A DNA stretch of 64,000 nt, taken from Rhodopirellula sp. SM50. Lineage in GTDB: Bacteria; Planctomycetota; Planctomycetia; Pirellulales; Pirellulaceae. The first letter of the stretch is position 1. Each line of letters begins with the position of its first letter. The notes beneath the pieces are model-generated. The model was not told the origin of the DNA. It saw nothing but the letters and a program-made list of their open reading frames with translations, and searched no databases. The stretch spans positions 124,001 through 188,000 of the forward strand of contig NZ_NTFY01000062.1 in NCBI RefSeq assembly GCF_002289565.1, in the 5' to 3' direction. Shown in pieces: positions 9,538 through 56,020 of the stretch. The translations under genes were made by a program, and so were the position numbers.

Positions 9538-9969
9538 CTTCGTATTATTCGTTCGTCTGGGAGAAATGGGGCGGTTTGACACTCAGTACGCCCGGTCAGA
9601 TCGAGCCGATCCCGCGACGGTGTTCTCTCCGCAAGTGTGAAACACCTACTTGCCGCCGAAGAACCGCAGCTTTGTTGATTCAGCAACGATCTGCGTGCCA
9701 GTTTAGCAACTCGAACAGTGGCGGTCGCGTCGCCGAAGACCGATCGCACGGTTCACCAAAGCCTGGCCAAGACCAAGAAGCCACCCAATTGGCAATGGTT
9801 GAGTCGGTGGCTCGCCCGCCAGGAAACGGACGCACCGCTCGTCGTGCGGCGTTCCATCCAGACGCGGTTCTCCACAGGTGGGACCACGCACCCCACGAAC
9901 GAGTTCAAGTTCGTTACGATCTGCGTATCCAATCGAACCAATCACGCAGGGAATCAGCGGGATACGGCC
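9538..9969. other. 432-bp divergent intergenic region
   Basis: This stretch separates the minus-strand oxidoreductase from the plus-strand radC. It must hold both promoters. No gene, strong repeat or convincing promoter hexamers were recognised. A reading frame in front of radC continues upstream through it but has no coding character or domain. Confidence 0.6.
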
Positions 9970-10923
9970 ATGGGGCAACAGAAGAAACGCAAAGAAAAAC
10001 TTCTCCAACTCTTCAAAACACTCTCGCCCATCAGTGCATTTTCGAAACAACAGGCGCGGGAGCGGTGTGCCGAACTGACCCCGCAATTCGTCTCTTTGGC
10101 ACTCAAAGACCTGGTCCGCGAAGGGATTTTGGATCGTTATGAATCGTCCGATCAGGAGACCTATGCCTGGCGGAATGCACAGGTCCGCGTCGATCCGTCG
10201 CATTGGATCGAACGCCAAGTCAGCGGCAACCAAGTCACGGCGCAACCGGAACAGGAACGACCGCGGGAACGGTTGCTGTCGTCCGGCGCCGAGACGCTCA
10301 GTAATGCCGACCTGTTGGCGATCTTGATCCGGGTCGGGGTGAAAGGCGAATCTGCGATCGAAGCCGGAAAGCGGTTGTCCAAGACATTTTCCGACAAGCT
10401 GTCCGATCTGCGACGCAGCGGGAAAGACGAGCTGCGAAACATCAGCCCGGCGATCACGGTGACCAGCTATGCCGCGATCATGGCCGGCATCGAACTGGGA
10501 CGCCGCGTGGCGCGACATGAACAACGGCATCGGCAGGCACACGCTCCGATCACGAGCACCAGCGCGGCGGTGGAGTTTTGTGACGATGCGTTCAGCGGGC
10601 TGGCGATCAGCGGGGTCCAAGAGGAGTTTCATATCGTCACGTTGAGCACCAAACACCTGCCGATCAACACTCACTTGATCACACGCGGCACGTTGGACGC
10701 GAGTCTGGTGCATCCGCGAGAGGTCTTTCGGCCGGCCATCCGCGATTCCGCTTCGGCCGTCATTCTGGTCCACAATCATCCCTCAGGGGATGCGACACCG
10801 AGTCGCGAGGACCACCAAGTTACCGATCGGATGACCGAAGTCGGAAAGCTGTTGGGGATCACGGTGCTGGACCATATCGTCGTTGCCTCGGAGGGGTCGG
10901 TCAGCATTCGAGAATTGGCGTGA
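9970..10923 (+). CDS. radC: RadC-family JAMM/MPN protein with N-terminal winged-helix-like extension
   Basis: A 317-aa protein; the ATG at 9970 starts the Lys-rich MGQQKKRKEK. Residues about 90-317 match RadC: an N-terminal helix-hairpin-helix part (RLLSSGAETLSNADLLAILIRVG) and a C-terminal JAMM domain. The metal motif is H268-N-H270-P-S-G...D281 (HNHPSGDATPSRED). RadC proteins are usually about 220-240 aa. Here about 75 extra residues precede them and look like a winged helix (SAFSKQQARERCAELTPQFVSLALKDLVREGIL). RadC was once linked to DNA repair, but its real function is unsettled. The fusion suggests DNA binding or partner recognition. The family is certain; the function is not. Confidence 0.9.
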   Translation: MGQQKKRKEKLLQLFKTLSPISAFSKQQARERCAELTPQFVSLALKDLVREGILDRYESSDQETYAWRNAQVRVDPSHWIERQVSGNQVTAQPEQERPRERLLSSGAETLSNADLLAILIRVGVKGESAIEAGKRLSKTFSDKLSDLRRSGKDELRNISPAITVTSYAAIMAGIELGRRVARHEQRHRQAHAPITSTSAAVEFCDDAFSGLAISGVQEEFHIVTLSTKHLPINTHLITRGTLDASLVHPREVFRPAIRDSASAVILVHNHPSGDATPSREDHQVTDRMTEVGKLLGITVLDHIVVASEGSVSIRELA

Positions 10924-33006: not shown

Positions 33007-33123
33007 CGCAAGGTGGGGAAAAACACAGCAGCACAAACGTTTGTGCCAGATTGTACCCTCGGTCGACTCCGTTTTGCCAGTACGCGTTGGCGGAAGTCGA
33101 CGACCGCTAACGTAAGGCAAGCC

Positions 33124-33440
33124 GAGAGGGCCGGACGCTGGCGCGAACCGGCTGATCTCAAACGGTGATCAGCCGATTGGCGCGAGCCTACGGGCACCAG
33201 CACGAGGAAACTTCGCTTCATTCAGCGAGAGGCCCGGACGCTGGCGCGAACCGGCTGATCTCAAACGGTGATCAGCCGTTTGGCGCGAGCCTACGGGCAC
33301 CAGCACGAGGAAACGAAGCTTCATTCAGCGAGAGGCCCGGACGCTGGCGCGAACCGCCTGATCTCAAACGGTGATCAGCCGTTTGGCGCGAGCCTACGGG
33401 CACCAGCACGAGGAAACTTCGCTTCACCCAGCGGTATTGG
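33124..33440. repeat. Three tandem 103-bp repeats with internal hairpin
   Basis: The motif ccggacgctggcgcgaacc recurs at 33131, 33234 and 33337, 103 bp apart. Each unit holds GGCTGATC-tcaaacggt-GATCAGCC, a perfect 8-bp stem, and a conserved tail gcctacgggcaccagcacga. The outer edges end with cagcggtattgg, as in the single copy at 22319-22473. The gap 33007-33521 holds no gene; short frames in it are repeat translations. Confidence 0.95.
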
Positions 33441-43165: not shown

Positions 43166-44419
43166 ATGAATGCAAATCAAACGGAAACCCTCGAACCTGC
43201 ACCAGCCAGTTTCGACGACCTGGACCTGTCTCCGGTGATGCGACGAGCGCTCGCAAAAGCCGGCTTCGAAAAACCTTCCCCGATTCAATCGGAACTGATC
43301 CCCTTGGCGCTCCAAGGGCTCGATGTGATCGGCCAAGCCCGCACCGGGACTGGTAAAACCGCCGCGTTTTCGATCCCGATTCTCGAGCAGCTCGATTCAC
43401 TCGAAGACTGCCGCGACCCGCAAGCGATCATCGTCGTCCCGACGCGTGAGCTGGCCGACCAGGTCGGCCGCGAGGCGCAGCGATTGGCAGCCGGCGTGCA
43501 CACCGAAATCGCGGTGCTGGCCGGCGGCAAAAACATCCGCACCCAGCTGCGACAACTGGAAAACGGCGTGCAGATCGTCGTCGGCACCCCCGGACGACTG
43601 CACGACCACCTGCAACGACGGTCCCTACGCACCAAAGACGTCTGGTGCGTCGTGCTGGACGAAGCCGACCGGATGCTGGACATCGGATTTCGGCCCCAGA
43701 TCGAACGCATCTTGCGTAAGTGCCCGCGAGACCGACAAACGCTGCTGCTTTCGGCAACGCTGCCCCCCACGGTCCAACGACTGGCCGAATCCTACATGGT
43801 CGACCCGATCGTGATCGATTGCTGCAAAAACGAGATGTCGGTCGAAACGATCGAGCAGCACTACTTCACGGTCCCGCAAGAACGCAAGCAAGACCTGCTG
43901 GTCGAGCTGTTGAAACGAGAGAAACCCGAGCAAGCCATTATCTTCTGTCGCACCAAACGCGGCACCGATCGCCTGTATCGTGCGATCAGCAAAGAACACC
44001 CCTCCTGCGCCGCCATGCATGGCGACATGGCTCAGCGCGAACGCGATCGTGTTCTGCAACGCTTGCGAGATCGTGACCTGGAGATCCTGGTTGCCACCGA
44101 TGTCGTCGGACGCGGCATCGACATCAGCACGATTTCACACATCATTAACTACGACGTCCCGGAAGACAGCGACGACTACGTTCACCGTGTCGGACGGACG
44201 GGGCGGATGGGCCGCGACGGCGTGGCGTTCACGTTCATCGTCCCCGGCCAAGGCGATTTCCTGACCAGCATCGAACAGCGAATCAACAAGCTGCTGATCC
44301 GTGACTCGATCCCCGGATTCGAAGCCCCCGAGAAAGCGGCCGAACCGGAGAAGAAAGAAGCCGACCCGATGCGGAAACGGCTCAATCCGATGCACAAGAA
44401 AGTCAAACGCCGCCGCTAG
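43166..44419 (+). CDS. DEAD-box ATP-dependent RNA helicase
   Basis: A 417-aa protein, ATG 43166. All DEAD-box motifs are present: Q motif (FEKPSPIQSE), I (ARTGTGKT), Ia (VVPTRELA), Ib (GTPGRL), II (DEAD), III (SAT), IV (IIFCRTKRG), V (ATDVVGRGID), VI (HRVGRTGR). The C-terminus is a basic tail (KRLNPMHKKVKRRR) that probably helps bind RNA. Length and organisation match RhlE/DeaD-class helicases. It unwinds short RNA duplexes during ribosome assembly or mRNA decay. It has its own position 45 bp after the lipoprotein stop and no obvious partner genes. Confidence 0.95.
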   Translation: MNANQTETLEPAPASFDDLDLSPVMRRALAKAGFEKPSPIQSELIPLALQGLDVIGQARTGTGKTAAFSIPILEQLDSLEDCRDPQAIIVVPTRELADQVGREAQRLAAGVHTEIAVLAGGKNIRTQLRQLENGVQIVVGTPGRLHDHLQRRSLRTKDVWCVVLDEADRMLDIGFRPQIERILRKCPRDRQTLLLSATLPPTVQRLAESYMVDPIVIDCCKNEMSVETIEQHYFTVPQERKQDLLVELLKREKPEQAIIFCRTKRGTDRLYRAISKEHPSCAAMHGDMAQRERDRVLQRLRDRDLEILVATDVVGRGIDISTISHIINYDVPEDSDDYVHRVGRTGRMGRDGVAFTFIVPGQGDFLTSIEQRINKLLIRDSIPGFEAPEKAAEPEKKEADPMRKRLNPMHKKVKRRR

Positions 44420-44515
44420 TGCCTTGTTCAGCAATGTACGATCCGTAAGCGTCGGCTTTCGTAGTGGACGAGGTGACGAGTCCCGCGCGTTGCTTCGCCT
44501 GACCGTCGCCGGTGG

Positions 44516-45280
44516 TCACTCGGCGAACAGACTGGCGACGAGCAATTGATCGGCGCCGGCATCGAGCAAACATTGCGCATCGCTGGCGCCGCGAACCCCG
44601 CCGCCGGTCACGTAACGCGGTTGTGGCAATTGACGCCGAACCCGCTTGCACAACCCAAGCGTACGCTCGACCGACGTGCCCCCGACGGATGCCAGATCCA
44701 GTCCGATCACCGTGGCGATCGCGGCCCGGCGACAGGCCTCAAACCAAGCCTCTTCCGAAGTCGATGCGGACAACCAGCGTCCGCCTTGGTAGTCCAAGCT
44801 GACGGCAACTTGATTTCGAGGAACGCGCGACAACACGTCAGCCAACAACGACACGTCGCCGGCGCATTCGGTTGCCAGGATCACCATCACACGCGGGTTG
44901 CTGCGAACCAACGATTCCAACCAATCCCAACCCTCTGCAGCGACCGCCGCACGCAGCCCCAGATCCAGGAACACAGTTCCATGGCGATCGGAATCATTGG
45001 CCACCGGAGCGCGATGGACGATCGTTTCGATCAACGACTGCTGCCAACGGCCATACCGAATGCCATCCAGATCGGCGACATAGAGAGAACCGATGCCGAC
45101 ACCTTGGTAGCCGTCGATCAATCGACACACATCCCCATCGATTGGAAGAGACGACTGGCCGGCGGCGTGGAACGTCGACACCGGCAGATACCGATCGCGC
45201 TGCCCGCCGACACCGTGGACCGCGAGCCCGTCCTGCAGATCGATCACACCGACGAAACGCGAAACAAGTGCGCTGTCCAA
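44516..45280 (-). CDS. HisA-like TIM-barrel protein
   Basis: A 254-aa protein. The TTG at 45280 was chosen because GGGG lies 5 bases upstream (45289-45286), and frames extending further upstream run into a 27-bp tandem repeat. Barrel strand motifs resemble HisA: VGVIDLQDGLAVHG with the catalytic Asp, YVADLDGIRYG, VIGLDLASVGGT and YVTGGGVRGASDAQ (GGV phosphate loop). True HisA, which isomerises ProFAR in histidine synthesis, is usually encoded in a his cluster; none is here. A HisA-like protein is known in tetrahydromethanopterin (C1) gene sets of methylotrophs and planctomycetes, so a C1-cofactor role is one option. Function is therefore open. Confidence 0.75.
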   Translation of the reverse strand: MDSALVSRFVGVIDLQDGLAVHGVGGQRDRYLPVSTFHAAGQSSLPIDGDVCRLIDGYQGVGIGSLYVADLDGIRYGRWQQSLIETIVHRAPVANDSDRHGTVFLDLGLRAAVAAEGWDWLESLVRSNPRVMVILATECAGDVSLLADVLSRVPRNQVAVSLDYQGGRWLSASTSEEAWFEACRRAAIATVIGLDLASVGGTSVERTLGLCKRVRRQLPQPRYVTGGGVRGASDAQCLLDAGADQLLVASLFAE

Positions 45281-45285
45281 TTCAA

Positions 45286-45289
45286 CCCC
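45286..45289 (-). promoter_or_regulatory. Ribosome binding site deciding the HisA-like start
   Basis: GGGG on the minus strand, 5 bases before the TTG codon at 45280. It sets the start inside, not within, the upstream repeat. Confidence 0.45.
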
Positions 45290-45292
45290 AAC

Positions 45293-45441
45293 GTGGCGTA
45301 AGCTTCCAGCTTGCGCGAAGTGGCGTAAGCTTCCAGCTTGCGAGAAGTGGCGTAAGCTTCCAGCTTGCGAGAAGTGGCGTAAGCTTCCAGCTTGCGAGAA
45401 GCGGCGCAAGCTTCCAGCTTGCGAGAAGCGGCGTAAGCTTC
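45293..45441. repeat. Minisatellite of 27-bp units
   Basis: The unit gtggcgtaagcttccagctt with gcgagaa starts at 45293, 45320, 45347, 45374, 45401 and 45428, exactly 27 bp apart (five full copies and part of a sixth). Each contains AAGCT-tcc-AGCTT, a 5-bp palindrome, and a HindIII-type AAGCTT. The core aggcttccagcct reappears as a single short palindrome at 57369-57381. The array runs directly up to the HisA-like translation start. Confidence 0.95.
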
Positions 45442-45457
45442 CCCCACGATCGCAGCA

Positions 45458-46009
45458 TCATGCGTCAGGCAGGGAGAACAGCGATTCCACTTTCACGATC
45501 GCGTAATCGTCGGGAAACGTGTGAATCGCCTGAACCAACATCGATCGTTGTCGCGTCTCGATATTGACGTAGCTAAGAGCGCCGAGCGACATCCTGCCGC
45601 TGGCATCGAAGGTGTGCAACAGGCCTTCGGTGGGCTGCTTGGAAAGTTGCTGCTGCACCATGAAGAACATGTCCGGTGCAACAGGCTCCAGTTGAAAGTG
45701 GGTTCGATAGCCGATGCCGAAATGAAAATCGGCCTTGTCGGTGCGACTGCCCTTGAGCGAATGGCTGATCAGACAGCGTTTGGTGGGCAGGGGTTGATGG
45801 GCGCTGGTGGCGACTTCACACACGGTCACCGGCGTCTTGCCGGTGGTGTTCCAGGTGATCACGTGCCCGCAATTGGTGATATTGACTTGCGCGTGATACG
45901 CACTTCGCTCAATACGGCGGGTGCGATGCACCCGGTAGAGTTCAGGGTGGAGCGACCGGCTGAAAACGTGAAACGCGAGTTCGGCGACTTTGGGGCGAAC
46001 CGAGAGCAC
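45458..46009 (-). CDS. DUF2617 family protein
   Basis: A 183-aa protein. The GTG at 46009 gives the N-terminus MLSVRPKVAELAFHVFSRSLHPELY, the normal beginning of DUF2617 members. A TTG at 46060 would add 17 residues. The fold is a small alpha-beta domain with short hydrophobic strands (YAIVKVESLFSL). Structure and chemistry are not known for this family, which is frequent in planctomycetes and myxobacteria. It is divergent from the TrpG/PabA gene. Confidence 0.85.
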   Translation of the reverse strand: MLSVRPKVAELAFHVFSRSLHPELYRVHRTRRIERSAYHAQVNITNCGHVITWNTTGKTPVTVCEVATSAHQPLPTKRCLISHSLKGSRTDKADFHFGIGYRTHFQLEPVAPDMFFMVQQQLSKQPTEGLLHTFDASGRMSLGALSYVNIETRQRSMLVQAIHTFPDDYAIVKVESLFSLPDA

Positions 46010-46344
46010 TGGCGAAATTCCGGGATCGACGAATGATAAGGGGGCAGAAACCGACAGCAAATCCGAGGCGACGCCCCACCTTGCTACGGTCCGATTCTGC
46101 CGACAATGGACAACAGATTACGATAACGCGCGACCCGAGGTCGCAAACCGCCGAGCGTTTCGTCTCTTTTCCGATTCGAAGTGACGCGTCAGGCTCTCGG
46201 CAAATCGCCTGATGCACGTCATTATAGATGCTCTCGCGAACAAGACAGAAGAGCGTTTATCGCTCCAAAATGAAAGATTTGCATTTTGTCCAATCGCGCT
46301 GAGATTCCCATTGACAGACAGCCCCGTTGTTACCTGGTTTCCGC
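46010..46344. other. 335-bp divergent intergenic region
   Basis: It lies between the DUF2617 and TrpG/PabA genes. A perfect TTGACA hexamer is at 46311-46316, 29 bases before the trpG/pabA ATG, but no convincing -10 hexamer follows at standard spacing. No gene was recognised. Confidence 0.5.
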
Positions 46345-46923
46345 ATGGTCATCGTCATCGATAACTACGATTCATTCACCTACAACCTCGTGCAACGACT
46401 CGGCGAGATCGACCCGACGACGAAGCTGCGGGTGTTTCGCAACGACGAAGTCTCGGTCGACGAAATGGAATCGCTGTCCCCGGATCGGATCTTGGTTTCG
46501 CCTGGCCCCTGCACGCCAAACGAAGCCGGCGTCAGCGTCGAGTGCATTCGCCGCTTCGCCGGCAAGGTGCCCATGCTGGGCGTCTGCCTGGGGCATCAAT
46601 CGATCGGTCAAGCTTATGGGGCGACGATCATCCGAGCCCCACAACTGATGCACGGCAAGACGGACGAAATCTATCACGACGACAAAGGGTTGTTCGCAGG
46701 GCTTCGCAATCCGTTCGTCGCCACGCGATACCACAGCCTGGTGATCGACCCCGAAACCATGCCCGACTGTTTGGAAGTCGCCGCCTGGACCGACACCGGA
46801 GGACAACGCCAAATCATGGGTGTCCGCCACAAGAACTTTCAACTGGAAGGATGGCAATTTCACCCGGAAAGCTTTCTCACCCAACCGGGGATCGAAATGC
46901 TGACTCGGTTTCTGCGATGGTGA
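46345..46923 (+). CDS. Anthranilate/aminodeoxychorismate synthase glutamine amidotransferase
   Basis: A 192-aa class I glutamine amidotransferase, ATG 46345. The N-terminus MVIVIDNYDSFTYNLVQ and the PGPCTP loop are typical of TrpG/PabA. The nucleophile is Cys81 in MLGVCLGHQSIG; the His/Glu pair is H173-P-E175 (FHPES). The enzyme passes ammonia from glutamine to chorismate for anthranilate (tryptophan) or aminodeoxychorismate (folate) synthesis. Family members often serve both. No trpE/pabB lies next to it; the class IV aminotransferase at 18460 could be the matching lyase. Length matches the family (about 190 aa). Confidence 0.93.
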   Translation: MVIVIDNYDSFTYNLVQRLGEIDPTTKLRVFRNDEVSVDEMESLSPDRILVSPGPCTPNEAGVSVECIRRFAGKVPMLGVCLGHQSIGQAYGATIIRAPQLMHGKTDEIYHDDKGLFAGLRNPFVATRYHSLVIDPETMPDCLEVAAWTDTGGQRQIMGVRHKNFQLEGWQFHPESFLTQPGIEMLTRFLRW

Positions 46924-47010
46924 ACCGTTTCAACATTGCTCGGGCAACCTTAGGTTGATGCTCACCGGTGCAGACGCTTGGCATCCGCTACCGAAGACCC
47001 CAGGAATCCC

Positions 47011-47757
47011 ATGCATCCGATACGTCGTGCCCCTTCACCATCAACTCATCAACTGGCTTGCATCGCCAGTGTGTTGGTGATGTCACTGATCTGCACTGCG
47101 CCAGCGCTGGGCCAAAGAGAAACGGCCGACCGCAGCGTTGAAATTCGACTCGATGACCTGCCCAAGCCGACCCCCGAAGTCGCCGCGTTGATCCGCCGCG
47201 GGACGGTGCGATTGATCACCGGCGGTCAGCCGACCGGCGATGCGTCATCGTTACCCGTCGGTCAACGCTTGGCCGGTGAGACACGGTTCACGTTTCGTTA
47301 TCGCTACGACAGCCGCGCGCAATGGCAGACGGAAAGTCGACGAAACGCGCTCAGCCAAACGATGGTGTCGATCCGCGTCCGCTTTCGCTCCATCAAATTG
47401 ATTTCAACACACGATATCTGGTTGCGTTCTCCGCCGTCGGCCAATCAGTTTTGGGACGACCGCGTGGTGCGTCACGAATTGGATCATGTCCGAATCTCCT
47501 CCGACCCGCGGATTGAAAAACACTTTCTTGATGCCGCCAAAGAACTGGAAATCATCCGGGTACCGCTGTCTTCGGTGGCGGGACGTGGCGGCAAGATTGA
47601 CAACGCCAAAGTCCAATCGCTCATCGAAGCCGGAATGAAGCAGGCCTTGAACAACACGACCGACTATGTGCGTATCCGCTACCGTGAATTGGACCGCTTG
47701 ACCCGGCATGGGATGCTGCCGCTACCCGATGACGTCGGCCTGGTCGACGAACCGTAA
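47011..47757 (+). CDS. Secreted DUF922-like candidate zinc protease
   Basis: A 248-aa protein from ATG 47011, with AGGA 6 bases upstream. The signal peptide is residues 1-35 (LACIASVLVMSLICTAPALG). Residues 155-159 read HELDH, which fits HExxH of zinc metallopeptidases and lies within VVRHELDHVRISSDPR. The region before it (FTFRYRYDSRAQWQ...MVSIRVRFRSIKLI) is beta-rich. The DUF922 family has a similar late HExxH. The third metal ligand was not identified. A periplasmic or cell-surface peptidase is the most economical idea but it is an inference. It is 87 bp from the helicase-independent trpG/pabA gene and is probably separate. Confidence 0.5.
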   Translation: MHPIRRAPSPSTHQLACIASVLVMSLICTAPALGQRETADRSVEIRLDDLPKPTPEVAALIRRGTVRLITGGQPTGDASSLPVGQRLAGETRFTFRYRYDSRAQWQTESRRNALSQTMVSIRVRFRSIKLISTHDIWLRSPPSANQFWDDRVVRHELDHVRISSDPRIEKHFLDAAKELEIIRVPLSSVAGRGGKIDNAKVQSLIEAGMKQALNNTTDYVRIRYRELDRLTRHGMLPLPDDVGLVDEP

Positions 47758-47795
47758 GCACACGGCCACGCAGGTCGCATCAGCGACGGGGCGGG

Positions 47796-48260
47796 TTAAC
47801 GAAAATCGGGAGGCGACGGTTCACCAGGGACGATACTCGCGTTGAGCATTTTCTCTTCCTGGAATCGTTTCAATCGCTCCTGAAATTCCTGCTCGGTTTC
47901 CTCTTCCGACTTTTTCTCGAGCCGGGGCGGTTCAGGTGTCGGGTCGCCGTCGGAGCCCCTGGATTTAACGCCACCGAGCGGTGCGACCCGCTCGCGGGCT
48001 TCGATCTCGTCACGCCCCGAGTCGCGAGGTGAAACGTCTCCGACCCGAGCTCCGCCGGGATCGAACAGACTGCCGACGCGTCCCGAGTCACGCTGCGTCC
48101 GCTCCCAACTGCCACCATAGGCTGAATAGGCCTGGTCCTCGCGGTCGCAACACAGCCGGCAACCGGTGCTGGATGTCACGGCGAAGCTGAGCAGCGCCAG
48201 CCCCATCAGCGTGCGTGAAACACGACTCAGTCGCTCGTCTGGTTTGCGGTCAGCTCTCAT
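47796..48260 (-). CDS. Small charged lipoprotein
   Basis: A 154-aa protein from ATG 48260. The signal ends in the lipobox TSSTGC (Cys about 34), followed by RLCCDRED. The rest is Arg/Asp/Glu/Ser-rich, with a short helical C-terminal segment (EEETEQEFQERLKRFQEEKM). No domain is recognised. The longer frame upstream of the ATG is Arg/His-rich and non-coding in appearance. Its role is unknown. Confidence 0.6.
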   Translation of the reverse strand: MRADRKPDERLSRVSRTLMGLALLSFAVTSSTGCRLCCDREDQAYSAYGGSWERTQRDSGRVGSLFDPGGARVGDVSPRDSGRDEIEARERVAPLGGVKSRGSDGDPTPEPPRLEKKSEEETEQEFQERLKRFQEEKMLNASIVPGEPSPPDFR

Positions 48261-48418
48261 CGTGTTGCTCTCGTTCACCACTTCACAGCGGGATAGAGTG
48301 TCGGCCCAGGTGCCGGTGTCAGTTCGACGGCCAGGGCGCATTAAAAAATGGCGTCCGCGGATGCGAACACCATTTGTATCGGTTACGACGACGAGAGGCT
48401 TTAGGAAAGATTTGCGGG

Positions 48419-48955
48419 TTAGTGGCGGATTGCGTGCACCACGTCGGTGATGTTTTTGCTCATCATTGCCAGGGCTGATTCGATTCGAGGCGCGGTGCCG
48501 AGTCGGTCGCCGACGCCGGGCAGCGACATGACGCAAAACAGCACCAACACGAAACCACCGTAGGCTGCACCACTGTTGATGCCAGAGTCATGTCCGATCA
48601 CGCGAGAACCTTTGGTAAAGGGGAGACGAAATGCCCAGCGCTCTTTCGGTTCGTATTCACGGATCGTGCCGACTTGCAATCGAGCCTCCCCCTGAACCGT
48701 TTCGACGAACGTTTCGGCGATGACTTGCATGCGACGACCGTCGTAGCGAAGGTCGTAGCTTTTGCCTGACTTGATCTTTTTTGCCAGTTTGGGGCCAAGT
48801 CCTAGTGTGAAACCGCCACCGGATGTTTCACGAACATAGACTTTGAGTGACTTGCGACCGACCTGGAGTGTTGCGACGCTGTCTCCGACCACTTTGCATC
48901 GATACGTTTTCGCTTGCCCTTCGGTGGGCAAGGTCTTGTAGGAATACGCTGGCAT
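48419..48955 (-). CDS. PilZ-like domain protein with C-terminal membrane segment
   Basis: A 178-aa protein from ATG 48955. The middle (residues about 15-110) is a beta-barrel-like stretch, TYRCKVVGDSVATLQV then VYVRETSGGGFTL, loosely matching PilZ motifs (R near the start; the E-T-S-G-G-G where PilZ has D/N-x-S-x-x-G). The C-terminus has a hydrophobic segment (GFVLVLFCVMSLPGV). If it is PilZ it could bind cyclic di-GMP, but the arginine motif RxxxR is not clearly met. It is an uncertain assignment. It lies divergent from the pentahaem cytochrome gene. Confidence 0.4.
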   Translation of the reverse strand: MPAYSYKTLPTEGQAKTYRCKVVGDSVATLQVGRKSLKVYVRETSGGGFTLGLGPKLAKKIKSGKSYDLRYDGRRMQVIAETFVETVQGEARLQVGTIREYEPKERWAFRLPFTKGSRVIGHDSGINSGAAYGGFVLVLFCVMSLPGVGDRLGTAPRIESALAMMSKNITDVVHAIRH

Positions 48956-49253
48956 CGTTCTGACAACCGTTGTGAGAGGGTCTGCCGGGATTGGACTGAG
49001 AACCAGTCCGGTTTGATTAGCTTTCGCGCCGACTGCGCGAACACTGAACGCTAGCTCGAAAAACCACCGACAACGTGACCTGGGGTGACCCCGCAGAGGG
49101 TTTTTCCTCAATAAGCTGTTCCGATTAGGAAGCCTGAACCAGCTATGACAGTCCGACCGGATGCAACGGTACTGTCAGGACGAATCGAAGAGTCAGGCCG
49201 GTGGCAGTCGACCGGCCCCGTTTTGATCCTTCCGAGCTCCGGACAGGCGGGCA

Positions 49254-51353
49254 ATGCAAGCCAAATCCATCGTTCTGGTGGCATCCATCACCGTGATCTT
49301 GACGCTTCGCCCAGCCCCCGCGAAGGCACAGCAAACGCTACCGCAGTCCTGGTCGCATCCGAGTGACCGAGATTCCTGGCGAGATTCATGGCAGTCCCCA
49401 CAACGCTCCGCCCACCCCGCGGCCTGGAACCCAGAATCGTTCTACCAACTCCGACGCATCGCGCCGGCACCCGTTCGCGACACGCAGGCTCCGCAGTCGG
49501 TTGACCAATTGCGCAAAACCTTGCGGATCGCAGCACGAGACAAGCATGATCCGCCAGCGACAAACGATCGATTGAGCGGGGGAGGTGACGATCTGCTCGG
49601 TGACGATCTGCTCGGTGACGATCTGCAAGATGATTTGCCGGACGGCTCGTCCGCCGATCCGCTGGCCGGTCTGGGCCCGATCCAAAACCGCGACGCCACC
49701 GGCCCTCGTGATCCCCACGAAGACCTGTGGACCGAAGACTGCTATCCCTCGGCGGAATCCTGTCGTGCCTGCCACCCGGTTCAATACGAACAATGGAGGG
49801 CCAGTGGTCACGCCTACGCCACTGTCTCGCCGATGTTCAATCGGTTTGAACAAGCGATGACGGAGCTCACCGAGGGCACGGTGGGCAGCTTTTGCAACCG
49901 CTGTCATTCTCCGGTCCAAACCCAACTGAAAATCCCCCGTTCGACGAGCGTGCTCGATGCACCACCGGTGGTCCGTGAAGGCGTCACCTGTATCGCCTGC
50001 CACCGCGTCAACGAACACTATTGGCGCAGCAACGGGGACCGCCGAATCGTCCCCGGCGACATCCACGCGCCGGTCTACGGCGGACGCGGCGGAGCGGGGG
50101 TTGGTGAAGCGATCGCCAATGCCGATGCGTTGAAACTGAAACTTTCGCCGCACGATACCGGTCCGGGACAAGCGATTCACTTGCAGGGTCGGTTCTTTAA
50201 GCCTCTGACCAACAGCGACGTGTGTGTGTCCTGCCACCAGGTCGCCGTCCATCCGGGCATCTGGTTGGAAGTCGTTCACGCACAGTATCGAAGCGGCCCC
50301 GCTGCCAAACGCGGCGTGTCCTGCCAGGACTGTCACATGGGTGCGGTGCCCGGCAAGCCGCACGGCTATCAAAGTGACTTCGTGGCTCACCTGGGCGACA
50401 AACCGTTCGGCGAAAAACGCAAACAGTCCAACCACATGTTTTGGGGTCCGGGTTTCTCGATCGCCCACCCGGGAATCTTTCCGCACCACCCCAAAGCCAA
50501 ACAATACACGCCGCGCCAGTGGCTGGCGTTCGACTATCGAGCCGGTTGGGGAACCGACGCGTTTGAAAATGCGGTGACAGCAGCGATGCCATTCCCCGAA
50601 CCGTGGGACACCGTCGACGATCGACGCGACGGACGCAAGATCATCGACGCCAACCTGGCCAAGCTCGCCGAAAAACGTGCCGGTTCGATCGCCACGATGG
50701 AAGGCGGATTGAAGATCGAAGGCCCGCACTTTGAACACGAACCGACCGCCGGACGTCGCCTAAAATTCAGCTACACGGTTTGCAACATCAGCGAAGGCCA
50801 CAATCTGCCGACCGGTTCCCTGGGAGCTCAACCGCAACTTTGGTTGAACGTCGCGTTGATCGATCCCGATGGCTGTCGCGTTTGGGAAAGTGGTTATCTG
50901 GATCGGAACGGCGATTTGGCCGACATGCACTCGGTCGATGTCGCGACACATCGTGTTCGACGCGACAAAGATCTGTTCAACCTGCAAACCAAATTTTTGA
51001 TCAACAACGTTCGCGGGACGGACCGCGAAGCCGCACTACCGTTGAATTTCTCCCTCGACCAACTTGTATTCTTACGCCCCGGTGCCGTTCCCGTTTCGGT
51101 GCTGAACCACCCGCCCTTGATCCGAATGGAAGCCCACTCGATTGCGCCGCTCGATTCACGAACGGCCCGCTACTCGATCCCCGCCCACGTGATGACGAAG
51201 AAAGGACCGTATCGATTGAGCGTGCGGATGCGAAACCGAACCGAACCGATTTACTTCATGCGTCAAATCAACAGCACGCCGGACATGATTCACCGCATGC
51301 TGGAAAACACGCTGGACTTGCACCCTTCCAGCCATACGTTTTGGGTGCGCTGA
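49254..51353 (+). CDS. Pentahaem c-type cytochrome, secreted
   Basis: A 699-aa protein from ATG 49254 with signal peptide (QAKSIVLVASITVILTLRPAPAKA). Five CxxCH haem sites are visible: C170-RA-CH, C214-NR-CH, C246-IA-CH, C324-VS-CH and C357-QD-CH. A short acidic repeat (GDDLLGDDLLGDDL) precedes the haem region. After the haem part, residues about 480-690 are beta-rich (GHNLPTGSLGAQPQLWLNV, ALIDPDGCRVWESG), a C-terminal domain also seen in other multihaem cytochromes. No transmembrane anchor is visible, so it is likely periplasmic or surface-bound. The stop TGA overlaps the next ATG (TGATG, 51351-51355), so the cytochrome and barrel are almost certainly co-translated. Confidence 0.92.
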   Translation: MQAKSIVLVASITVILTLRPAPAKAQQTLPQSWSHPSDRDSWRDSWQSPQRSAHPAAWNPESFYQLRRIAPAPVRDTQAPQSVDQLRKTLRIAARDKHDPPATNDRLSGGGDDLLGDDLLGDDLQDDLPDGSSADPLAGLGPIQNRDATGPRDPHEDLWTEDCYPSAESCRACHPVQYEQWRASGHAYATVSPMFNRFEQAMTELTEGTVGSFCNRCHSPVQTQLKIPRSTSVLDAPPVVREGVTCIACHRVNEHYWRSNGDRRIVPGDIHAPVYGGRGGAGVGEAIANADALKLKLSPHDTGPGQAIHLQGRFFKPLTNSDVCVSCHQVAVHPGIWLEVVHAQYRSGPAAKRGVSCQDCHMGAVPGKPHGYQSDFVAHLGDKPFGEKRKQSNHMFWGPGFSIAHPGIFPHHPKAKQYTPRQWLAFDYRAGWGTDAFENAVTAAMPFPEPWDTVDDRRDGRKIIDANLAKLAEKRAGSIATMEGGLKIEGPHFEHEPTAGRRLKFSYTVCNISEGHNLPTGSLGAQPQLWLNVALIDPDGCRVWESGYLDRNGDLADMHSVDVATHRVRRDKDLFNLQTKFLINNVRGTDREAALPLNFSLDQLVFLRPGAVPVSVLNHPPLIRMEAHSIAPLDSRTARYSIPAHVMTKKGPYRLSVRMRNRTEPIYFMRQINSTPDMIHRMLENTLDLHPSSHTFWVR

Positions 51354-53125
51354 TGAAGAGTTTCAAACCATCCTTGTTCGCGCTCACTCTGCTGTCGCTG
51401 TGCGCAATTGGTGCAGACCGCCCTCGCCGTCTACCACCGGTTCTTCCACCACCTAACGCTCTGCGGCCACAAACGGACCTGCAACTCGACCGCTTCACCG
51501 CCGCACTGGATCGCTACCTCGCACCGCAGTTGGAATCGCAACCTGAGATAGCGATTCGTCGTCTGCCCACGACGGAGAGGCAACTGCCGCAATTGTCTGC
51601 GGACTTATTCGCCAGCGACACGCCGGTTTCAAACGCGACTCCAACATCCCAACCGCTGATTGACGATGATCGACCACACGCCGAACCCGCGGCGCAGGCC
51701 CGGACCGCGACACTCAGCGAGAAGTTGATCGACGATTCGCATGCCGAACCGGCCCCCATCGTGCTGCACGATCCCGGCATGGATTTCTCTCCGATGCCGC
51801 TGGATCCCGATGCCTGCTACCACGATTCCGGCCGCGAAGCCTGGGTCTACGATGCGAAACACGACGTCCCGACACAGCATCCCTGGGTCGAATGGGGACG
51901 CATCTGGTATGGGGACGGAATCACACCGCGGGGGCGCGATCTATTCGGTCCGATGAATCTGGTTCGCCCCAAGTTTTATGTCTACGGTGACTTTCGAACG
52001 GGCATCCAGGCGGGACGCAACGCCGGCGGGCGGGCCGACAACTGGGCCAATCGCTTGAACTTGGATATGGATCTGCAGATCACCGACACCGAACGGTTCC
52101 ATGCCTTTGTCGGTCCCTTGGACAAGCAGAACCGATTCACGCGTTGGGAAGTGATCGACGGTGATTTACGTTATCGCAACGAAATGAACCTGACTCCGGC
52201 GACCGCATTTTTCGAAGGCGATCTGGGCGTCATGCTGGGGGCCTTGGGAAATCAATCCTCGCCGTTTGAGTTGCCGATCTCGGCGGGACTGATGCCGCTG
52301 TTGTTCCAGAACGGCATTTGGATGGAAGACGCCGTCAGCGGCATTGCGTTCGCGGTCCCGGCAAAACACAGCCGGCTGCTCAATTGGGCCAACTTTGACG
52401 TCAGCTTCTTTGCCGTGTTCGATCAACTCAACAGCCCCGCGTTTGCCGACAACAGCGACGCACAAGCGTTCGGGACCGCCTGGTTCATCGAAGCCTACGG
52501 CGGCTACATCGAAACCGGTTATGCCTATTTGAATCACCGCAACGATGATTCATTGAGCTACCACAACGCGACGTTCAGTTTTACGCGACGCTATTTCGAT
52601 CGCATCAGCAACAGCGTTCGTGTGATCGTCAATGCGGGGCAGGACCGCGCCAAGGCCGACCGAACGGCCGACGGCGGATTGTTGCTGGTGGAGAACAGTT
52701 GGATCACGGCCGCACCGTTGACCGTGGTTCCCTATGCCAACTTTTTCTACGGTTGGGACCGGCCACAATCGGTCGCCCGCGCCGGGATCTCCGGCGGCAT
52801 CTTGCGCAACACGGGAATCAACTTCGATACCGACGGACTGAACGGCTTTGCCACGCTGGACACGTCCGCCGCCGACACGGCGGGCGGTTCGGTCGGCGTC
52901 GATTTGATCGGCGAAGATCTGGACCGCCAGCTACTGCTTGAACTGAGCTACCTCACGCCCCACGGTGACCGCGCGATCGCCCGCGGCGATCAGTACGCGA
53001 TCGGAGCCAGATATCAGTTCCCGATCTCCAACGCGACGCTGCTGCGGTTCGACGTCATGCACGGCTGGCGAGAAGGCGATGACGACGTCTACGGCACACG
53101 GATGGAATACCGCTGGAAATTTTAA
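51353..53125 (+). CDS. Predicted outer-membrane beta-barrel protein
   Basis: A 590-aa protein from ATG 51353, sharing one base with the stop of the cytochrome gene. Signal peptide: residues 1-21 (SLFALTLLSLCAIGA). Residues 22-185 are a soluble Pro/Asp-rich part. Residues about 190-590 alternate strands of 9-12 residues (KFYVYGDFRTGIQAG, NLDMDLQITDTERFHAF, IEAYGGYIETGYAYLNH, NATLLRFDVMHGW) and end in EYRWKF, the C-terminal aromatic of outer-membrane barrels. The alternation suggests roughly 20 or more strands. Coupling to a five-haem cytochrome makes an outer-membrane electron conduit plausible. No known family name was recognised. It is convergent with the Mur ligase gene, 8 bp away. Confidence 0.8.
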   Translation: MKSFKPSLFALTLLSLCAIGADRPRRLPPVLPPPNALRPQTDLQLDRFTAALDRYLAPQLESQPEIAIRRLPTTERQLPQLSADLFASDTPVSNATPTSQPLIDDDRPHAEPAAQARTATLSEKLIDDSHAEPAPIVLHDPGMDFSPMPLDPDACYHDSGREAWVYDAKHDVPTQHPWVEWGRIWYGDGITPRGRDLFGPMNLVRPKFYVYGDFRTGIQAGRNAGGRADNWANRLNLDMDLQITDTERFHAFVGPLDKQNRFTRWEVIDGDLRYRNEMNLTPATAFFEGDLGVMLGALGNQSSPFELPISAGLMPLLFQNGIWMEDAVSGIAFAVPAKHSRLLNWANFDVSFFAVFDQLNSPAFADNSDAQAFGTAWFIEAYGGYIETGYAYLNHRNDDSLSYHNATFSFTRRYFDRISNSVRVIVNAGQDRAKADRTADGGLLLVENSWITAAPLTVVPYANFFYGWDRPQSVARAGISGGILRNTGINFDTDGLNGFATLDTSAADTAGGSVGVDLIGEDLDRQLLLELSYLTPHGDRAIARGDQYAIGARYQFPISNATLLRFDVMHGWREGDDDVYGTRMEYRWKF

Positions 53126-53133
53126 ACAGAGCA

Positions 53134-54801
53134 CTAACGAAACAGCTTCAGCTTGATCGGTGCACCAACTTCCCCGGCGGAATCGGATCCCGACGCCGCT
53201 TCTTCTTCGGCGTCCTGTTTGGACCGGGCGGCATCGACAAGACGCGCCAGTCGCTCGATCTCGGTGCGTGAGTCGTGCGCCGACTGAACCCGTTGGTTGG
53301 TGATCACGACGATCGTGTCACGCGCTCGCGAGGATTCGATCGCCCACTCGATGGCTTTGTCTTGATCGGCGACCAATCGAATCGCGGCGCACTTCTTCAC
53401 TCCGTCCAACAGTTGGTGGGAACGCTGCAGAAACGAACCGGCTTGGTTGGGACGTGACGTGACGACGCAATGATGTGCGAAGCGTTCGATCGCGTGTCCG
53501 TAGCTGGCCAACAAATCGTCGTCGTCGCCTTCGCCGATCGCTAACACGCACCAGACCCGACCGCCTGCACCGACGGCCTTGGCCGTCCGCAACGCCTCGG
53601 TGACACGATCCACCGTCCCGCCGGTTTCCAGCACCACCGTCGCGTGGCCAAAATCGACCAATCGCTGACCACGGCCGGGAATCGATCGAAGCGTCGACAA
53701 GTGCTTGGCGATCTCGTGGGGTGAATGCCCCAACAGCGATCCCAATGCGGCGGCGGCGGCGATGTTGGATGCCATCGAGATTCCGCACAGCGGCGTTTCC
53801 ATCATCGCGCTGGTGTCACCGGCGGTCAGCATCAGCGTCGCCATGCCGCCGGATTGATCGATGATGATCGCACCAAACTCACTGTCGGTCGACGTGCCAT
53901 AATAGATCGGCTGGCAGCGTGCCTCGTCCAACAATCGAACCGTCTTGGCGTCGTCACCGGGGGCGATCACGACTCCCGTCGGCGTCAGTTGTTCCAACAA
54001 ACACTGCAACCCACACGGTCCAAAATCATCGGACAGTTCGCGTTTGCCCGTCACCATCAGCACATCAAACTGCATCGAGTCGTAGTGCCCGTCGCGGGCG
54101 GCGGTTTCATCGATCTCAATGAGCGCGATGCGACTGAGGCAGTCGCTCGACTCGGCAATCCACTCGATCAACTCGGCGCCGTAACAGACCTGTTGTGATG
54201 ATGTTTCGTTGACCACGCCGTCGCTGGATCCGAGATCACATTGGTATGCGGTTCGAATTCCCAACGCTTTGGTCAACGTTGCCGCCAACAAACACGTCGA
54301 TGTCTTGCCGCTATGACCGAGGACGCCGACGGTCAACAACGTCCGATCCGGCTGACGGTGACGGGCCGAAGCGATTCGGGCCAGGGCATGATCGACGCTG
54401 CCGACGATGCACTGGGGCAGCGGACAAGGCAACATTTGTTCGGTCAGAATGCCACTGGCACCGCGAGCCAACGCCACCGAAATCAATTCGTTTGGATCGC
54501 CTTCACCGATCCGATACAGCACCACATCGCCTTGATCACAATCCGCGACGTCTTCGACGAGATTCGAAACCGCAAGCTCTTCGCATCCGAAAAACTTGGC
54601 CTCGGGAAACAATGCGGCCAACTTGATCGGAGTTGCTGCCGCGTCGTCTTCGGCCGCAAAACGTTCCACGGTCACCGACGTCATCGACGGGCCTCCCGTG
54701 TCGGATACTTTGGACAGCGGAACCAGCTCTTTGTTGACCGAGTCATCGTCAAGGAGAGTGCGAAAAGAAACGCTTTGTCGAACGTCAAATGCGTGTCGCA
54801 T
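53134..54801 (-). CDS. Divergent Mur ligase (MurE-like, lacking MurE signature motifs)
   Basis: A 555-aa protein. GGAGG lies 7 bases before ATG 54801. The N-terminal part resembles Mur ligase domain 1. The P-loop is GVLGHSGKTST (159-169). The central domain follows (SNIAAAAALGSLLGHSPHEIAKHLST is typical), then domain 3. Two regular MurE features are absent: where MurE has DNPR (meso-diaminopimelate binding), this reads TSRPNQAG, and where MurE has TNLxxDHLDYH it reads TGKRELSDDFG. So it is probably a paralogue for another substrate, or a regulator. The rest of the peptidoglycan gene set is not in the window. It is downstream (138 bp) of the uracil-DNA glycosylase gene on the same strand. Confidence 0.75.
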   Translation of the reverse strand: MRHAFDVRQSVSFRTLLDDDSVNKELVPLSKVSDTGGPSMTSVTVERFAAEDDAAATPIKLAALFPEAKFFGCEELAVSNLVEDVADCDQGDVVLYRIGEGDPNELISVALARGASGILTEQMLPCPLPQCIVGSVDHALARIASARHRQPDRTLLTVGVLGHSGKTSTCLLAATLTKALGIRTAYQCDLGSSDGVVNETSSQQVCYGAELIEWIAESSDCLSRIALIEIDETAARDGHYDSMQFDVLMVTGKRELSDDFGPCGLQCLLEQLTPTGVVIAPGDDAKTVRLLDEARCQPIYYGTSTDSEFGAIIIDQSGGMATLMLTAGDTSAMMETPLCGISMASNIAAAAALGSLLGHSPHEIAKHLSTLRSIPGRGQRLVDFGHATVVLETGGTVDRVTEALRTAKAVGAGGRVWCVLAIGEGDDDDLLASYGHAIERFAHHCVVTSRPNQAGSFLQRSHQLLDGVKKCAAIRLVADQDKAIEWAIESSRARDTIVVITNQRVQSAHDSRTEIERLARLVDAARSKQDAEEEAASGSDSAGEVGAPIKLKLFR

Positions 54802-54808
54802 GTGATGG

Positions 54809-54813
54809 CCTCC
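54809..54813 (-). promoter_or_regulatory. Ribosome binding site deciding the Mur ligase start
   Basis: GGAGG on the minus strand, 7 bases before ATG 54801; it excludes the longer upstream frame. Confidence 0.65.
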
Positions 54814-54939
54814 GTGCACATCGTGGGGTTCAGCTTTCACGAATGAGTAAGCGATCCTTTCGCTTACGTTTGGTATCCGCGATCGATGCACAGATTGTTC
54901 TCGTATTGCAAAACCGGTCAATACGAGTTTTTTTCGCGG

Positions 54940-55914
54940 CTACATCAAGCCGGCGTCGCGAAGCATCAGCTGCAAATCGTCCCAGGCCGCTTTTTTTGCG
55001 GCCGGATTGCGCAAGAGATAAGAAGGGTGATACGTCACCAACACTTTGCTATCAAAGTATTGATGAAATTTTCCTCGCAATCGTCCGACGGACAGTTTGG
55101 TGCAAAGCAGTGCTTGGGCGCTGACCAGCCCCAAGCACACGATGTATTCCGGTCGCAAGATTCCGAACTGTGCTTGAAAGAACTCGCGACAGTTTTCGAT
55201 CTCGGTCGGCTCGGGGTTTCGGTTGTTGGGCGGCCGACACTTGACCGTGTTCATGATGTAGACGTCCTCACGGGCGAACTTGCACGCTTGAATCATCTTG
55301 GTCAGCAGCTGACCGGCTTTGCCGACAAACGGACGTCCCGACAGGTCTTCGTCGCGACCGGGGCCTTCGCCAAAGAAGACGACTCGCGGAGCCACGTTGC
55401 CTTCGCCGAAGACAGTTTTGGTGCGGCACTGGGAAAGGATTTCGCAGCGCGTGCAGGCGGCCACCTGTTCGGAGAACCTTGCCAGTTCGGCGGCGCGCGC
55501 ATCAGGGACCAGCGATGGTCCAGGATAGGGCTCGGCGGGGTCGGCCGAATCGCCCTGCAGGGAGAACCCGGACGCGGGTCCTGCGGTGCTCGGCTGGACG
55601 GTCCCGGCGGCGACGGCTGGGGGCCCCGCCGCAACGGGTTGAACCACGGCGGGTTGAACCACGGCGGGTTGAACCACGGCGGGTTGAACCGTGGGGGGGG
55701 AAACTGCGGGCGGCGCAGACGCCTGCTCGGAGCTTCGCTCGGGCGCGCCGTCGGCGGCCGACCGCAACTGTTCCGCCAAAGCGGTCACGGAGTCGGGGTC
55801 GGCCGCCGGCAACCACTGGACGCCGACGCGTTGCAGGTGTTCGGCCAATCCGGCGGCTTGGGCGAGGGTAACGGCTGGATCGGGCCCTTCGAGATTTTGA
55901 TTTTCTTGCGGCAT
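54940..55914 (-). CDS. Uracil-DNA glycosylase family 4 (4Fe-4S)
   Basis: A 324-aa protein from ATG 55914. The glycosylase domain is residues about 145-324: the iron-sulfur cysteines C154, C157, C226 and C242 have the spacing of Thermus family 4 enzymes (C-x2-C, 68 residues, then C-x15-C). Motif 1 is FFGEGPGRDEDLSGRPFVG; the second motif is VTYHPSYLLRNP. It excises uracil from DNA. An N-terminal extension of about 140 residues includes four copies of V-V-Q-P-A (encoded by 15-bp DNA repeats at about 55636-55695) and is probably a flexible linker. Family 4 enzymes usually lack such a tail. Gene divergent from der (106 bp apart). Confidence 0.94.
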   Translation of the reverse strand: MPQENQNLEGPDPAVTLAQAAGLAEHLQRVGVQWLPAADPDSVTALAEQLRSAADGAPERSSEQASAPPAVSPPTVQPAVVQPAVVQPAVVQPVAAGPPAVAAGTVQPSTAGPASGFSLQGDSADPAEPYPGPSLVPDARAAELARFSEQVAACTRCEILSQCRTKTVFGEGNVAPRVVFFGEGPGRDEDLSGRPFVGKAGQLLTKMIQACKFAREDVYIMNTVKCRPPNNRNPEPTEIENCREFFQAQFGILRPEYIVCLGLVSAQALLCTKLSVGRLRGKFHQYFDSKVLVTYHPSYLLRNPAAKKAAWDDLQLMLRDAGLM

Positions 55915-56020
55915 GGCACCATAGATAACACACGGCCTACTTGTTTTGCACCATGGCGTTTAACATAGCAGGCTTGTTTCCCATCCCGTTCCGCAACACG
56001 CCTGTCCGACAGTCTTTTCC

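Follow-up and report, generated by a model that had tools for sequence, protein, structure and literature searches.

A pentahaem cytochrome and a predicted outer-membrane porin of Rhodopirellula sp. SM50 as the probable outer end of a dispersed PCC4-type electron pathway

PCC4 and related porin–cytochrome systems

Among the described porin–cytochrome systems, PCC4 is the best match in gene content to the subject of this report, a pentahaem cytochrome c gene and a predicted outer-membrane porin gene that lie side by side in a 64,000-nucleotide stretch of Rhodopirellula sp. SM50 (contig NZ_NTFY01000062.1, positions 124,001 to 188,000; hereafter the window). PCC4 was described by He et al. (2017) as consisting of a porin together with three periplasmic cytochromes, which have 4, 5 and 10 haems, and a membrane protein carrying two WX3HX13H motifs and SGXXG; in its Subgroup II an iron–sulfur (Fe-S) gene (pfam13247) stands upstream of the membrane protein gene, and Planctomycetes are named as bearers (PMC5566968). 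According to that paper, the system was found by a survey of five genes on either side of a cytochrome, is proposed for iron-oxidising bacteria, is likened to MtoAB/PioAB, and is proposed to have quinone as its electron partner (PMC5566968). In further literature on porin–cytochrome systems (PMC10732223, PMC11475568, PMC6344600 and PMC13264449), PCC4 is mentioned in passing by one paper.

The pair in the window is probably the outer-membrane end of a trans-envelope electron pathway of the PCC4 type, with its genes dispersed in this genome; the finding is best regarded as a dispersed form of a porin–cytochrome system that is already known, though unproven. The porin of the window adjoins a five-haem cytochrome that is presumed to be periplasmic, and cytochromes with four and ten haems are encoded elsewhere in the same genome, on contigs C111 and C72, respectively. 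The tetrahaem cytochrome of C111 is 56% identical to that of the related locus L033, and C72 holds a row of genes for an Fe-S protein with a cyclic-nucleotide (cNMP) domain (612 amino acids), a membrane protein (291 amino acids) and the decahaem cytochrome (659 amino acids), a membrane anchor of the decahaem protein being seen by eye. As in Subgroup II, the Fe-S gene, whose product matches PF13247 (E=1.2e-7), lies directly upstream of the membrane protein gene (L043, 8046-9884 followed by 9915-10790). The membrane protein has W-X3-H-X13-H twice together with G-X2-G, all invariant in 7/7 aligned rows, the serine of SGXXG being present in five rows and replaced by threonine in two; a ferric-reductase-like match is weak and below the Pfam cut-off. 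Because this match in content is detailed, the proteins most likely belong to the PCC4 families. The systems differ in their arrangement, since the pair, the C72 module and the C111 tetrahaem occupy three contigs of the draft genome, whereas PCC4 forms one cluster, as do the corresponding genes in the related loci L033, L038, L052 and L064; they also differ in that the window porin was modelled on 18-strand folds. An initial annotation of the window had remarked that no inner-membrane partner is encoded nearby. This holds for the 64-kb window, where no relatives of the inner-membrane module were found, and is misleading for the genome, in view of the row on C72. The features concerned are the following:

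49254..51353, + strand: pentahaem cytochrome c gene, 699 amino acids, five CxxCH, C554-like core
49761..50336, + strand: region from C170 to H361, containing all five CxxCH haem sites
50796..50816, + strand: GHNLPTG motif (residues 515-521), with H516 a candidate distal haem ligand
51351..51355, + strand: TGATG stop/start overlap of the cytochrome and porin genes
51353..53125, + strand: predicted outer-membrane porin gene, 590 amino acids, ending in RWKF
48419..49111, - strand: small divergent open reading frame upstream of the pair, with relatives in 15 other loci

Other systems resemble the window less closely. MtrAB, MtoAB and PioAB, as described in PMC5566968, share with it the pairing of a periplasmic multihaem cytochrome with an outer-membrane barrel, the cytochrome having ten haems in contrast to five in the window. 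The decahem_SO/DmsE model scores 25.4 bits against the window cytochrome, with a cut-off of 192.2. The window barrel has no Pfam match, in a database that presumably holds an MtrB/PioB model, and it was modelled on narrower folds. On haem count and model scores, an assignment to the Shewanella Mtr system was rejected. The initial annotation had likewise pointed to the ext cluster of Geobacter, for which nothing found lends support: the ExtKL-type model NF040886 reaches 17.2 bits against a cut-off of 250 (ExtABCD were not compared). Finally, verrucomicrobial gene clusters, from members of the same Planctomycetes–Verrucomicrobia–Chlamydiae (PVC) superphylum, are described as having a novel porin beside a multihaem cytochrome, for which extracellular electron transfer is proposed; that cytochrome has eight haems as opposed to five, the porins have at least 20 predicted transmembrane motifs, and an extracellular cytochrome is sometimes present (PMC5615132).

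Conservation of the pair and its companion genes

Scanning genomes with the porin as query yielded 37 loci, in Planctomycetota and in records titled Gammaproteobacteria and other groups, and the cytochrome gene lies upstream on the same strand in all 37, with five CxxCH in 36, the cytochrome of L014 being cut by the contig end. Within the phylum, 51 of 294 planctomycetote genomes have a porin match, with 78 porin places in total; from these, 20 regions in 17 genomes were fetched, both strong and weak matches being sampled (including all eight strong matches besides the window's own). In these 20 regions each of the 21 porins, the most diverged of them at about 24% identity, is immediately preceded by the cytochrome gene, and none copies any of the 37 (best identity 55%), so that 58/58 examined porins have a same-strand upstream cytochrome. 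L015, whose porin reading frame stops early in the mechanical reading, was left out of alignment A1, and L014 out of A2 on account of its truncated cytochrome; both are counted as pairs. For every remaining neighbour in the window, relatives occur in 15 of the other loci at most. In its own genome (9.8 Mb, 146 contigs) each of the two proteins has one match at E<=0.001, and the titled records of highest identity to the pair are Planctomycetes bacterium TBK1r and Stieleria sedimenti. The survey of gene-pair conservation that had been asked for by the initial annotation thus finds the unit kept together in relatives, strongly so.

Several variants of the pair were observed. Three of the 21 fetched cytochromes have a sixth CxxCH; these stand in the diverged pairs of L060, L061 and L062, where the extra site lies in the N-terminal region and where relatives of the companion genes were not found in the fetched stretch. 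L046 (G127:C21, 8947-16474) contains two cytochrome–porin pairs in tandem, one nearer to the window type and one diverged. In L051 (4419-9163) and L053 (4147-6795), cytochromes with 15-17 CxxCH stand beside the pair and are possible extracellular partners.

The companion genes accompany the pair directly in some relatives. In L033, L038, L052 and L064, all six component types occur together, the neighbours of the pair being the cNMP + 4Fe-4S protein, the membrane protein, the decahaem and the tetrahaem. A second arrangement is seen in all five gammaproteobacterial-type loci (L034-L037 and L039), in which the genes downstream of the pair encode, in order, two four-haem cytochromes, a protein combining FAD/NAD-type, cNMP and 4Fe-4S domains, and a membrane protein resembling b561; in the three longer contigs (L035, L037, L039) a decahaem gene comes next. 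Domain scans for this type covered five L035 genes and three L037 genes. Here the FAD + cNMP + Fe-S gene stands downstream of the four-haem cytochromes; PCC4 is described with a redox gene upstream of the tetrahaem. The operon contig of L034 is filed under a metagenome-assembled genome named Klebsiella pneumoniae, a label that may be a misassignment. Among the 20 fetched loci, 11 have one or more companion relatives in the fetched stretch, weak ones in L051 and L058. A search of the window's own genome with the decahaem of L035, which carries an FHA domain, gave no match at E<=1e-5; since a diverged decahaem exists in that genome, the empty result marks a limit of sensitivity. Menaquinone (futalosine)-like genes were seen by eye at L045 10279-12272, near the C111 tetrahaem, which may be coincidence.

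Although the porin and the Fe-S protein are encoded on different contigs in the window genome, they tend to occur together across genomes. For the porin, the window type was defined by E<1e-150; a strong or full-length Fe-S match was taken as E<1e-90 in the phylum and E<1e-150 in the family, and these thresholds were set after the tables had been seen. Of 149 family genomes, 69 carry the two proteins together, one has the porin only, eight have the Fe-S protein only and 71 have neither, such that presence or absence agrees in 140 (Fisher p about 4e-32, a value that ignores common descent). In all 14 family genomes that are assembled as one contig and carry both, their linear distance ranges from 107 kb to 4.5 Mb. 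Three of the eight genomes with only the Fe-S protein have a weak-class porin, and five (G421, G375, G431, G329, G357) have no porin match at all; in porin-less genomes the Fe-S module may serve another outer partner, or the porin may have been missed in a draft assembly. In the phylum sample, a porin match is present in 25/25 genomes with a strong Fe-S match, compared with 51/294 overall; among these 25, the Fe-S match of G112 is split in two and that of G049 runs from about position 237 to 577 of 579. Another 23 genomes, whose Fe-S matches are weaker (E 5.7e-41 to 8.1e-64) and for the most part partial, were left uncounted; five of them have a porin match. The porin genomes without a strong Fe-S match include two of the three six-haem-variant genomes (G018, G192), and the third, G099, has a five-haem pair, a six-haem pair and the Fe-S protein. 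Pairs in the former group may use another partner.

The pentahaem cytochrome and the porin

The five haem sites of the cytochrome read CRACH, CNRCH, CIACH, CVSCH and CQDCH. In 2000 residue shuffles of the protein the mean was 0.012 CxxCH and the maximum one, so that five are far beyond chance for this composition. A low-complexity N-terminal linker, which holds a 15-base tandem repeat (window 49584-49626), extends to about residue 160 and is followed by the five-haem C554-like core (about 165-365) and a beta-rich C-terminal domain containing GHNLPTG. Residues 170-250 match Cytochrome_C554 (PF13435, E=3.8e-10), and a NapC/NirT match also passes its Pfam cut-off; no NCBIfam model reaches its cut-off, all being far below. 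A profile of 37 cytochrome rows matches the solved structure of cytochrome c552 from Thermochromatium tepidum, 5ze8 (E=3.9e-11), and in the alignment each of the five CxxCH falls on a CxxCH of that protein. This likeness is limited to the haem core (profile positions 38-238 of 571), the GHNLPTG domain being unmatched.

Outside the CxxCH motifs, H186, H309, H394, H405 and H516 are invariant in 37/37 rows, the first two within the CxxCH span and the other three beyond it. In an alignment of 58 rows, H186, H309, H394 and H516 remain invariant, and H405 is kept in 54, with proline in the other four. Five additional conserved histidines for five haems suggest that the haems are bis-His ligated, with these residues as candidate distal ligands; among them H516 of GHNLPTG, present in 58/58 rows, is a candidate ligand that would be provided by the C-terminal domain.

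The cytochrome stop codon TGA (51351-51353) shares its A with the porin start codon ATG at 51353, which was taken as the start, whereas a mechanical list of reading frames starts the gene at 50780. Judging from this overlap, translational coupling of the two genes in this genome is plausible. Relatives do not generally share the one-base overlap, their two genes overlapping to a different extent or being separated by as many as 194 bases. Both proteins have what was judged by eye to be a Sec-type signal peptide. The porin begins with a disordered N-terminus (to about residue 150) and a conserved segment (about 150-200), followed by the predicted barrel (about 204-590), and the terminal phenylalanine of its RWKF ending is invariant in the 37 rows of A1. 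With strands taken from the structural model, the summed strand alternation of 45.9 stands against 27.3 ± 4.6 for shuffled sequences, none of 2000 reaching it. In 17/20 modelled strands, conservation is higher on the presumed lumen face than on the face towards the lipid. The initial annotation had been drawn from the letters of the DNA, and its description of the pair (five CxxCH in one protein, the TGATG overlap, signal peptides, alternating strands and a C-terminal aromatic residue) was confirmed, its coordinates being exact.

The porin has no match in Pfam or NCBIfam at E up to 1. The best fold matches of its model are barrels of the OprD/Occ/MOMP/AlgE type, which have 18 strands, and the model fits an 18-strand OprD/Occ/MOMP-like barrel. 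A non-barrel fold would have spoken against the initial annotation, and the model shows a barrel; its suspicion of a different barrel family is supported in that no match to an MtrB-type family appeared. The fold matches listed for the model include no MtrB-type barrel, an absence that does not exclude one. MtrB has 26 strands, and a calculation for ideal barrels puts the backbone radius at 16.5 Å with 18 strands as opposed to 23.5 Å with 26. It should be added that the strand number of MtrB is given as 28 by He et al. (PMC5566968).

Competing explanations, consequences and neighbouring features

In a dispersed PCC4-type pathway, the cytoplasmic cNMP-binding 4Fe-4S protein would exchange electrons with an inner-membrane protein presumed to bind two b haems, and the route, in whichever direction it runs, would then lead via the membrane-anchored decahaem and the C554-type tetrahaem to the pentahaem cytochrome of the window. 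The latter would dock at the periplasmic mouth of the 18-strand porin, whose conserved pore could be entered by a small redox-active substrate or by the tip of this cytochrome, and electrons might be exchanged there with an extracellular partner. The FAD/NAD-type domain fused to the gammaproteobacterial-type Fe-S protein hints at a nicotinamide or ferredoxin pool as the cytoplasmic partner, rather than or besides quinone.

A number of observations weigh against this reading. The likeness to PCC4 was established from published gene content, and no experiments on PCC4 or on the biochemistry of the system were found in the literature searched, which covers few subscription journals. The window has no second multihaem cytochrome (no other frame with at least two CxxCH), and in this it resembles PCC4, which is described as being without an extracellular cytochrome. 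Companion relatives were not found in the fetched stretch at 9/20 loci. The co-occurrence counts ignore shared ancestry and cover the Fe-S protein, not the membrane protein, the decahaem or the tetrahaem; in the family, the Fe-S protein occurs in five genomes where the porin has no match at all and the porin stands without the Fe-S protein in one, and 26 of the 51 porin genomes of the phylum are without a strong Fe-S match. The AlphaFold model of the cytochrome is poor (mean pLDDT 57.7) and too weak to place haems. A fold search with it yielded nothing with an E value of 0.001 or better, and because the model is poor its best sub-threshold rows (transglutaminases and other enzymes, perhaps via the C-terminal beta domain) were not used.

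The alternatives differ mainly in what the barrel is for. It could be the sheath of an MtrAB-like conduit, with the pentahaem core inside the barrel as an insulated wire to insoluble minerals. The pairing of the genes and the predominantly conserved lumen face, as for a barrel gripping its partner, would suit such an arrangement, as would the likening of PCC4 to MtoAB/PioAB by He et al. (PMC5566968). The fold matches to 18-strand barrels argue in the opposite direction, since the radius calculated above offers a haem core of some 200 residues little space; a barrel of this width looks too narrow for an MtrB-type sheath, which favours docking at the pore mouth and makes the sheath unlikely. Of the outer-membrane conduit foreseen in the initial annotation, the conserved cytochrome–barrel unit stands, and the sheathed form does not sit well with a modelled barrel narrower than MtrB. 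OprD/Occ porins are channels for small organic substrates, and the same fold and conserved lumen face would also suit a porin dedicated to importing a small substrate for a periplasmic redox enzyme, to which the inner-membrane module would supply electrons or from which it would take them. C554-related families include nitrogen-metabolism proteins, the cytochrome gives weak matches to the nitrite-reductase partner families NrfH and NrfB, and the pair is widespread in a family of mostly aerobic heterotrophs. However, five extra conserved histidines suggest bis-His haems, which would leave no open catalytic site, and no NCBIfam model reaches its cut-off; an open haem is possible in the four rows where H405 is replaced by proline. 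An enzyme with its own porin is, on balance, quite improbable. That the two genes are mere housekeeping neighbours without a joint function might be argued from the intergenic distance, which varies between genomes; this explanation is close to refuted by the 58/58 porins that follow immediately after a cytochrome gene of the same orientation, against at most 15 other loci with relatives of any other window neighbour.

Returning to the dispersed PCC4-type pathway, it can tentatively be proposed, with more doubt than confidence, that such a chain belongs to the core equipment of a large part of one planctomycete family and links cytoplasmic redox chemistry to the outside via an OprD-like porin that is narrow and gated and at which the pentahaem cytochrome docks. 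If so, a second architecture for outer-membrane electron transfer, distinct from a sheathed wire, would exist in supposedly ordinary aerobic heterotrophs, and the cytoplasmic chemistry connected to it would be of the Fe-S type, with FAD/NAD-type chemistry in addition in the proteobacterial versions. Surveys with a five-gene window would see a lone pair, because the inner-membrane half can be megabases away. The porin and the full-length Fe-S protein are found together in 69/149 sampled family genomes, and a scan for the pair, not for the module, places it in named strains, among them Rhodopirellula baltica BR-MGV and Stieleria sedimenti, so that the function of PCC4 becomes testable in cultures. 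The width of the barrel gives a concrete prediction by which a gated pore can be told from a sheathed wire. The gene content of PCC4 and Planctomycetes as its bearers were already known (PMC5566968). Within the literature searched, the division into unlinked loci that still co-occur is new, and so are the wide distribution in the family, the predicted OprD-like fold of the porin and the candidate role of the GHNLPTG histidine.

Around the pair, the small divergent reading frame at 48419..49111 is probably a neighbour and not part of the system, and an Rfam scan of window positions 44000-56000 gave no match. A 27-base tandem repeat (5.6 copies, window 45293-45442) lies at the start of an open reading frame, and a repeat peptide resembling its product by eye is encoded at L043 2800-3495; further tandem arrays are located at 839-1219 (95-base) and 33123-33433 (103-base). 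In the window's own genome, the CxxCH-type DNA pattern occurs 1063 times, compared with 551 for the reversed control, and one variant of it, TGCTGTGCATGCCAT, recurs on contigs C1 and C2, which hints at a repeated element.

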